Shown one piece after another: positions 37,196 to 39,190 of a stretch of 64,000 bases of DNA (positions are counted from its first letter, which is position 1; each line of letters begins with the position of its first letter). The notes under the pieces are model-generated. The model ran no database searches. It saw only the letters and a program-made list of their open reading frames with translations, and was not told where the DNA came from. Both the position numbers and the translations under genes were made by a program. The DNA lies in contig NZ_CP063458.1 of the NCBI RefSeq assembly GCF_015169395.1, positions 5,456,001-5,520,000 on the forward strand, in the 5' to 3' direction. This DNA is from Humisphaera borealis. Its GTDB lineage: Bacteria > Planctomycetota > Phycisphaerae > Tepidisphaerales > Tepidisphaeraceae.

Positions 37196-37223
37196 TTGAC
37201 GCGCCGGCATTTGCCTGTATCTT
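37196..37223 (+). promoter_or_regulatory. Sigma70-like promoter of the cobalamin riboswitch operon
   Basis: TTGACG (37196-37201) and TATCTT (37218-37223) are separated by 16 bases. A start about 37230 would put the riboswitch at the very 5' end of the transcript. Confidence 0.65.
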
Positions 37224-37227
37224 CCGA

Positions 37228-37505
37228 TTCGCAAGCGAAAGGTGTCCGGACACGGCCGAGGAATCTGCCGCCGTTCGGCTGAATAGGGAAGTGTGGTGAC
37301 TCGGTGTAGGCCGCTTGAGGGCCGGAATGCCGGGGATTCCACCGCGGACGCGCCGCCGTGAAGGGTGGGCGAATACCGGAAGCAGGGTCGTGAAGATCCC
37401 TCGCCGGTCTCGCCAAGCGTTCGGCCAACGAAGTCACTGCCGACGGGAAAAACCCGTGGCGGGAAGACGGCCGACGTGATCACCCTGAGCCGGAAGACCT
37501 GCCTG
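37228..37505 (+). ncRNA. Cobalamin (adenosylcobalamin-type) riboswitch
   Basis: All core elements of the B12 riboswitch occur in order: AAAGGTGTCC (37238-37247) at the 5' side, GAATAGGGAAGTGTGGTGAC (37281-37300), CGGACGCGCCGCCGTGAAGG (37345-37364), AAGTCACTGCCGACGGG (37431-37447), GGCGGGAAGACGGCC (37458-37472) and the B12 box AGCCGGAAGACCTGCC (37488-37503). It is followed 80 bases later by an intrinsic terminator, so control is probably by transcription attenuation: ligand bound means off. The regulated operon encodes two PEP-CTERM proteins and a pseudopilin. Confidence 0.93.
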
Positions 37506-37585
37506 TCGTTTGGTGTTCGTCCTCGCGACCCAAAGGACTCAGCACCGGGCAGGCCCCTGTTCCATCGACCCCGGACAGACACGCC

Positions 37586-37626
37586 ACCCGGTACTTCGTC
37601 GCGAAGGACCGGGTGTTTTCGTTTTC
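37586..37626 (+). terminator. Attenuator terminator of the cobalamin riboswitch
   Basis: CACCCGGT (37586-37593) pairs with ACCGGGTG (37609-37616), and CTTCG with CGAAG inside, across one mismatch. TTTTCGTTTT follows at once. It lies 67 bases before the first gene and is a textbook intrinsic terminator for riboswitch control. Confidence 0.85.
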
Positions 37627-37692: not shown

Positions 37693-38238
37693 GTGAAAGG
37701 TCTGATGTCTCGGTCCGTTGTCCCCCGGGGACGACGGCGTTTTCTCGTGCTTCTATCCCTGGGCAGCCTTGGGGCCGCGACGGCCGCAACCGCGGCACCG
37801 ATCGCCGTCGGCACCGGCGACGAATCGGCGACGGTGGTGCTCAACTTCTCGGACGGGGCGACCTTCGATTTCCTCGTCAATTACGCCGGGCCGACCACCA
37901 CCGGCGAGCAACTGCTGCGAACCATCGACACGTTGCCGGGGTTCACGCTTGACGCACCGGGCACAGGCGGATCGTTCTTCATCTCATCCATCGCCTACAA
38001 CGGGCATACCGACGGACCGACCTACATCCCGCCCGAAGGCTGGTGGCACTACTGGACCGCCGACTCCGCCGGCGCGAGCTGGACGTTCTCGTCGATCGGC
38101 GCGGGCGTTCGCACGATCGACAACGGATACGTTGACGGCTGGGTGTTCGGCTCGGCCGCCGCGCCGGTTCCGGAACCGGCGTCGCTCGGCCTGATGGGTG
38201 TCGCCACCGTCGGGTTGCTCGCCCGCCGACGCCGCTGA
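37693..38238 (+). CDS. PEP-CTERM exported protein, SCO2322/DUF4430-like, B12-regulated
   Basis: A 181-residue exported protein. A signal peptide (FLVLLSLGSLGAATAATAAP) and a C-terminal PEP-CTERM sorting signal (VPEPASLGLMGVATVGLLARRRR) frame one domain. The domain has a beta-grasp-like start (ATVVLNFSDGATFDFLVNY; GEQLLRTIDTLPGFTL) and ends GWWHYWTADSAGASWTFSS with NGYVDGWVFG. That ending recalls SCO2322-type and DUF4430 (transcobalamin-like) proteins encoded near B12/cobalt uptake genes. With the riboswitch directly upstream, extracellular corrinoid binding is a fair inference. The GTG start has GGGAG five bases upstream; ATG at 37705 is the alternative. Confidence 0.82.
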   Translation: MKGLMSRSVVPRGRRRFLVLLSLGSLGAATAATAAPIAVGTGDESATVVLNFSDGATFDFLVNYAGPTTTGEQLLRTIDTLPGFTLDAPGTGGSFFISSIAYNGHTDGPTYIPPEGWWHYWTADSAGASWTFSSIGAGVRTIDNGYVDGWVFGSAAAPVPEPASLGLMGVATVGLLARRRR

Positions 38239-38256: not shown

Positions 38257-38295
38257 TTGTCGGCCGGGCCGCAGGGCCTGCGGCCCGGCCGACAA
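38257..38295 (+). repeat. 19-bp-arm hairpin between the two PEP-CTERM genes
   Basis: TTGTCGGCCGGGCCGCAGG (38257-38275) and CCTGCGGCCCGGCCGACAA (38277-38295) are perfect inverse arms around one base, ending TCTCT. It can terminate or attenuate transcription inside the operon, or protect the 3' end of the first message. Confidence 0.8.
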
Positions 38296-38341: not shown

Positions 38342-39190
38342 ATGAGACGATCAATTTCTGCAGTTCTCTTTGCCGGCGCGGCAGCCGTCTTTGCCCTGCC
38401 CGCCATGGCATCGCCTTTTGCGACGTCTGTCGTTTCGACGACGGGCTTCCCGGTAACGCCGGGGCTCTACACCGATCCTTCCGCGGTCCTGGGCAAGCCG
38501 ACCACGATGTATCACGATGCTCTGAACGGCATCGACTATCGCTCGTCGGTCGTCGCCGCGCCATTTGGGACCGCCACCGACCAGGCAACCTCGATCGTCA
38601 CCACGCTCAACGCCGGACAGTCGATCGTCGTTACGTTCGACCACGATGTCGAGAATGACACGAAGAACCCGTTCGGCGTCGATTTCATCGTGTTCGGGAA
38701 CTCGTTCTTCACCGGATCGGCCGCTGTCACGCCGACCAGTGACATGGGGCAGATCAGCATCCTTGCCGGCGTCAACAGCGAGGCGGTGACCGTGGAGGTT
38801 GCTCAATCCCTCGCCGGCCCGTGGTACAGCTACTCCACCCGCACCGGCGACGGATTGTTTCCGACGCAGGCGTATACATGGGACGGAGCCAACAACGCGT
38901 GGGGTGCTGAATCGGACTTCACAAAACCGGTCGATCCGTCGCTGGGCGACGCCAGTTTCGTCGGTAAGACCGCCGCCGAAGCGATCGCGCTCTACAACGG
39001 GTCGGGCGGCGGGGCGGGGTTCGATCTGACCGACAGCGGCTTTGCCTGGATTCGCTACATCCGGCTAAGTGGAGACGGCGGCGACGTCGATGCGATCGCC
39101 GATGTGACGGCCGTGCCCGAACCGGGAGCCGTCGCTTTGGCGTTTGCCGCCGGTGGGTTGCTCTTACGTCGTAGAACGCGCCGATGCTGA
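38342..39190 (+). CDS. PEP-CTERM surface protein of the B12-regulated operon
   Basis: A 282-residue protein with a signal peptide (AVLFAGAAAVFALPAMASP) and a PEP-CTERM tail (VPEPGAVALAFAAGGLLLRRRTRR). The main domain is beta-rich and contains TFDHDVENDTKNPFGVDFIV followed by FGNSFF, then VEVAQSLAGPWYSYS and GFAWIRYIRLSGDGGDVDAIADV. The FGN-x-F core followed by a W-Y motif is typical of large cell-surface proteins often found downstream of cobalamin riboswitches; this is from memory and needs a search. The export type requires an exosortase elsewhere. The next gene overlaps its stop. Confidence 0.82.
   Translation: MRRSISAVLFAGAAAVFALPAMASPFATSVVSTTGFPVTPGLYTDPSAVLGKPTTMYHDALNGIDYRSSVVAAPFGTATDQATSIVTTLNAGQSIVVTFDHDVENDTKNPFGVDFIVFGNSFFTGSAAVTPTSDMGQISILAGVNSEAVTVEVAQSLAGPWYSYSTRTGDGLFPTQAYTWDGANNAWGAESDFTKPVDPSLGDASFVGKTAAEAIALYNGSGGGAGFDLTDSGFAWIRYIRLSGDGGDVDAIADVTAVPEPGAVALAFAAGGLLLRRRTRRC

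Follow-up and report, generated by a model that had tools for sequence, protein, structure and literature searches.

The window, the 64,000-nucleotide stretch of Humisphaera borealis DNA analysed here, holds three consecutive forward-strand genes behind a cobalamin riboswitch. The first, P0001 (37693..38238, starting with GTG at 37693 or ATG at 37705), encodes a secreted PEP-CTERM protein of 181 amino acids with a transcobalamin-beta-like domain; its N-terminus, judged by eye, is a hydrophobic export signal. Residues 158-181 (38164..38235, forward strand) form a PEP-CTERM exosortase sorting signal that scores 27.7 bits with PF07589 (cut-off 20.7) and 24.3 bits with TIGR02595 (cut-off 16). Two exosortase genes are present in the genome, along with many PEP-CTERM proteins, and a tail above cut-off in a genome with an exosortase places P0001 among the latter. 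The initial annotation had called a PEP-CTERM reading frame at exactly this position, and had regarded its product as surface-anchored; the call is confirmed, and the anchoring stands as a signal carried by the tail.

The second gene, P0002 (38342..39190, forward strand), encodes a secreted protein with a domain that is BtuH-like in its AlphaFold2 model, followed by a weak PEP-CTERM-like tail (TIGR02595, 14.2 bits, below the cut-off of 16). P0003 (39184..40020, forward strand), which shares its first seven bases with the end of P0002, encodes a DUF1559-like pseudopilin with an N-methylation motif (PF07963, 24.6 bits, cut-off 21.2; PF07596, 19.1 bits, below its cut-off). The operon contains no gene for an alpha/alpha toroid protein, and neither a BtuB nor an ABC gene adjoins it.

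The cobalamin riboswitch and its surroundings

The aptamer lies at 37223..37520 on the forward strand, matches RF00174 over the full model (1-189) with 53 bits and an E value of 2.3e-10, and ends 172 bases before the start codon of P0001. It is the sole RF00174 match in a search of the whole genome (7,189,892 bases). A B12 riboswitch directly before P0001 was thus correctly recognised at the outset, and the link recurs across relatives, as described below. Just upstream, at 37196..37223 on the forward strand, a consensus scan finds a weak promoter-like -35/-10 pair, TTGACG-16-TATCTT (one found against 0.4 expected by shuffling). Sequence and folding also brought up a terminator-like forward-strand hairpin followed by TTTTCGTTTTC at 37585..37626 as a possible expression platform; its stability is no better than that of shuffles (z -1.15), and we do not claim it. 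Between P0001 and P0002 there is a near-perfect hairpin with a 17-bp stem and without a T-tract (38257..38295, forward strand), whose fold (z -5.15) is equalled in stability by 0 of 200 shuffles. This hairpin could set the ratio of the P0001 and P0002 products.

The predicted fold of P0001

Searches of Pfam, NCBIfam and PDB sequences assign the P0001 domain to no family, and no Pfam model covers it. The AlphaFold2 model of the domain (residues 36-155, 37798..38157, forward strand), which was built on the family alignment, has a pLDDT of 93.4 and a pTM of 0.87, and is predicted to be a beta-grasp domain like the beta domain of transcobalamin and intrinsic factor. Foldseek's top 18 PDB matches comprise only transcobalamin, intrinsic factor, haptocorrin and 3u7z, the last of which we take to be a representative of Pfam DUF4430. 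With VIA-align, intrinsic factor (2pmv_A) superposes with Z 13.4 and an rmsd of 2.3 A over 105 residues, haptocorrin with Z 13.3, the transcobalamins with Z about 12 and 3u7z with Z 12.0. The B12 carriers and 3u7z together span Z 11.5-13.4, against 7.1 for the best other fold, so the resemblance to transcobalamin and DUF4430 that the initial annotation had put forward is borne out by the predicted structure. The model begins with strands 9-16 and 22-29, followed by helix 36-43 and then by strands that include 50-52 and 64-67; 100-105 residues superpose, and P0001 lacks the aromatic residues that its family usually has in the hairpin. What is matched is the fold, not a ligand site.

Predicted fold and strand order are those of the beta domains of transcobalamin, intrinsic factor and haptocorrin (2pmv, 4kki, 5np4), with 10-15% identity. 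Unlike these animal carriers, P0001 has no alpha/alpha toroid domain, carrying the beta-type domain alone within its 181 residues, and it has a PEP-CTERM anchor and riboswitch control. Crystals of the human beta domain alone have been obtained with cyanocobalamin. P0001 also resembles the transcobalamin-like clade of SLBB beta-grasp domains, which includes DUF4430 and consists of secreted domains proposed to scavenge B12 (PMC1796856). From that clade, too, P0001 differs in several respects: its operon is without CbiO/CbiQ genes, it is under a riboswitch, carries a PEP-CTERM anchor and is paired with a BtuH-like protein, and the DUF4430 profile misses it.

Sequence conservation in the P0001 family

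Full-length relatives of P0001, at 27-41% identity, occur in the class (298 genomes). The two motifs on which the initial annotation had rested, GWWHYWTADSAGASWTFSS and NGYVDGWVFG, are both where it had placed them. They belong to a WWHYW...W...G..R...DG..DGW pattern that is kept across 30 homologues and, being so conserved, is not due to chance. In the alignment of 30 domains G42, W118 and D148 of P0001 are invariant, and W130, R140, G145 and W150 nearly so. Alignment positions 36 and 59 are each glycine in 28 of the 30 members, P0001 having glycine at the former and serine at the latter; we read these as the two glycines described by Burroughs et al. in 2007 (PMC1796856), one after strand 2 and one before strand 3. 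In the hairpin whose counterpart in transcobalamin touches cobalamin, the family consensus is Y/F-x-F/W-G, and P0001 has T-x-G-S instead. The two hairpin aromatics, kept in 27 of the 30 members, are therefore replaced in P0001, so that its own binding may be weaker or changed, or the partner may do the binding.

How close is the domain to named families? The initial annotation had seen a resemblance to SCO2322-type proteins. The NCBIfam model for these, NF040672, matches residues 117-155 weakly, with 16.9 bits (cut-off 85) and an E value of 0.006, over model positions 8-44; that is, the YW...W...G...DG..DGW segment aligns, covering no more than 37 of 144 positions. Thirteen of the 30 members give a similarly weak match (best E 0.002), and P0001 is the sole site in the genome with E <= 0.1. 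The resemblance is thus real as a weak and recurrent match that stays far below cut-off, and P0001 falls outside the family as defined by more than 85 bits over the model. A literature search on SCO2322 returned nothing. The PF14478 (DUF4430) profile, to which the annotation had also pointed, matches neither P0001, nor the 30 family members, nor anything in 120 class genomes; for this reason we call the domain transcobalamin-beta-like and not DUF4430. A profile-profile comparison of the family with animal transcobalamins gives P 0.023 and a probability of 2%, against P 0.31 for a control with the unrelated P0002 profile, and is suggestive only. At L025 the domain is seemingly fused to a pilin, possibly through a missed stop.

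Conservation of the riboswitch link

The class sample consists of the best 29 relatives of P0001 (loci L010-L038). In 19 of them a cobalamin riboswitch scoring above the RF00174 gathering threshold lies upstream on the coding strand. At the standard cut-off the 12.5-kb stretches of the other ten appeared to have no riboswitch, a result overturned by a permissive search, which finds AdoCbl-type aptamers (RF01482) in the same place with 30-48.7 bits (cut-off 50) and just one other Rfam match. These sub-threshold aptamers are at L015:1259-1405, L018:1204-1343, L020:1286-1437, L021:2031-2175, L024:1271-1436, L028:2047-2189, L029:1215-1318, L032:1154-1313, L033:2174-2322 and L038:1100-1260. All ten loci belong to one taxonomic family, and their low scores suggest a divergent subtype outside the RF01482 model. 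Across a phylum-wide set of 15 loci a cobalamin riboswitch is above cut-off in ten, below it in two and lacking in three. Seven control loci of the genome that holds P0001 (L002-L008), which encode PEP-CTERM proteins resembling P0001 mainly in the tail, have no riboswitch, as is expected of a genome with a single one. A literature search on planctomycete cobalamin riboswitches found nothing. The riboswitch ties the family to B12 status; it is not proof that P0001 binds B12.

The link extends to another phylum. In a Tannerellaceae locus (L009) a one-sequence search finds a homologue of the P0001 domain (E 5e-11) behind a 107-bit RF00174 riboswitch and ahead of a DUF5074 protein, the BtuG propeller (E 5.5e-90). 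This homologue, a Bacteroidota secreted protein (L009:9224-10177), carries an insert of roughly 80 residues in the domain and possibly stands for an unnamed Btu family.

The partners of P0001

P0002 belongs to no Pfam family and has no significant PDB sequence match, and its AlphaFold2 model (pLDDT 96) has the predicted fold of the BtuH B12-binding domain. The first-ranked Foldseek match is 8blw_B (E 6e-4). P0002 superposes on residues 393-660 of this chain (BtuG1/BtuGH) with Z 13.3 and on residues 318-592 of BtuH2 (7biz_A) with Z 13.2, the next other fold being at 10.8. To BtuH2 and the H domain of BtuGH from Bacteroides thetaiotaomicron (7biz, 8blw; PMC8941943) the identity is 21-27% over 135-140 structurally aligned residues, and both they and P0002 stand under cobalamin riboswitches. 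Unlike them, P0002 has no PKD or propeller domain, and it ends in its weak PEP-CTERM-like tail. An asparagine in an FGN motif (position 97) is invariant in the P0002 family and could match Asn399 of BtuH2. This partner is beyond anything the initial annotation foresaw.

The P0002 family is present in 51 of 160 class genomes, and among relatives from a separate search 17 of 20 loci have a cobalamin riboswitch upstream. Eight relatives carry the P0001-type and P0002-type domains fused in one protein, in one order at L022, L023, L027 and L035 and reversed at L026, L031, L034 and L037. A P0003 relative adjoins 17 of 30 P0001-family loci. As a side observation, NCBIfam NF033170 (LIC_13355 family lipoprotein) weakly matches 17 of 33 P0002-family members (best E 1.2e-5; 38411-39109 in the window), which may mean that these lipoproteins are BtuH-like as well.

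B12 use elsewhere in the genome

The genome encodes a MetH-like B12 user and, away from the operon at 6.71 Mb, a BtuFCD-like ABC locus. A search for the GATase_3 domain of the cobyric-acid-synthase type yields partial matches and none of full length, which makes cobamide auxotrophy of the bearer likely, as judged from the genes, if not proven. A single TonB plug receptor was detected in the genome (L129:7712-9952); its neighbours are ABC genes of the Mn/Zn type and a small protein that weakly matches a B12-binding domain.

A model for the operon and its alternatives

We propose that P0001 is a cell-surface cobamide binder of the transcobalamin/intrinsic-factor beta fold that heads a three-gene, riboswitch-controlled capture operon, and consider this probable. 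In B. theta, ample cobamide leads cobalamin riboswitches to repress the operons for B12 uptake (PMC12751083), and from this precedent we infer repression here: with cobamide in supply, the aptamer would bind it and the operon would be off. Under cobamide shortage, P0001 and the BtuH-like P0002 would be exported, and exosortase would process the PEP-CTERM tail of P0001, a protein that may then remain on the outer face of the cell or in its extracellular matrix. P0001 could bind cobamide alone, as the isolated human transcobalamin beta domain binds cobalamin (PMC5599065) before the alpha domain closes over it (PMC5599065, PMC11107200). P0002 could bind cobamide separately or close the other side, and the ABC locus at 6.71 Mb might provide the inner-membrane step.

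It is tempting to go further and suppose that P0001 and P0002 clamp one cobamide between them at the exosortase-anchored surface, with a pseudopilin fibre as a possible support. They would then be a bacterial counterpart of the animal two-domain clamp of intrinsic factor and transcobalamin, and the operon a dedicated riboswitch-controlled machine in Planctomycetota and relatives. We hold this to be possible but doubtful.

If one of the two proteins were to do the binding, might it be P0002? P0001 would then have kept the transcobalamin-beta fold and lost binding on its own, and would act as an accessory part: a lid, for instance, a spacer or a docking module. It is P0002 that matches a solved B12-binding domain, and P0001 that has lost aromatics present in nearly all of its family; the two domain types occur fused, and there is a precedent in B. 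theta, where BtuK1 binds cobalamin and its homologue BtuK2 does not (PMC12751083). Against this, at L010, L019 and L036 a P0001-type domain follows a riboswitch and no domain of the P0002 type occurs within 14 kb. A locus can thus have the P0001-type domain as its chief product, and we think such an accessory role improbable.

The beta-grasp fold is generic, and domains of this kind bind many ligands (PMC1796856); 3u7z itself carries the annotation of a putative metal binder. That P0001 has another ligand, either a different small molecule or a metal (cobalt, for example), is nevertheless very unlikely given the distance in Z between the B12 carriers (11.5-13.4) and other beta-grasp folds (about 7), the cobalamin-type riboswitches in nearly all relatives and the BtuH-like partner. 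Hardly credible is an ordinary PEP-CTERM matrix protein with a riboswitch next to it by accident: the genome has many PEP-CTERM proteins, and for many PEP-CTERM families no function is known, but the linkage is seen at all 29 of the 29 class loci and recurs in another phylum, against 0 of 7 PEP-CTERM controls. An incidental link is already contradicted.

Implications

Transcobalamin-like domains were noted in planctomycetes, with a proposal of B12 scavenging, by Burroughs et al. in 2007 (PMC1796856). The extension of the idea to Planctomycetota, which the initial annotation expected from P0001, is thereby anticipated in part. Bacteroides is known to bind B12 through BtuH, BtuJ and BtuK (PMC8941943, PMC12751083, PMC13398666), and among planctomycetes a DUF4465 protein of Mucisphaera calidilacus does so as well (PMC13398666). 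DUF4465/BtuJ proteins are extracellular B12 binders of the beta-jellyroll type (PMC13398666, PMC12751083), a family distinct from P0001, and nothing in the operon matches them. A limited literature search found no description of the P0001 PEP-CTERM family, of its riboswitch link, of its anchor or of its pairing with a BtuH-like protein, and the operon looks like an undescribed B12-scavenging kit.

How planctomycetes of soil, sea and wastewater acquire B12 is poorly known, and the P0001 family offers a direct, expressible candidate. It would extend outer-surface B12 capture, as carried out by BtuG, BtuH, BtuJ and BtuK in gut Bacteroides, to another phylum and another anchoring system, and it supplies relatives for tracing the origin of the animal B12 carriers.
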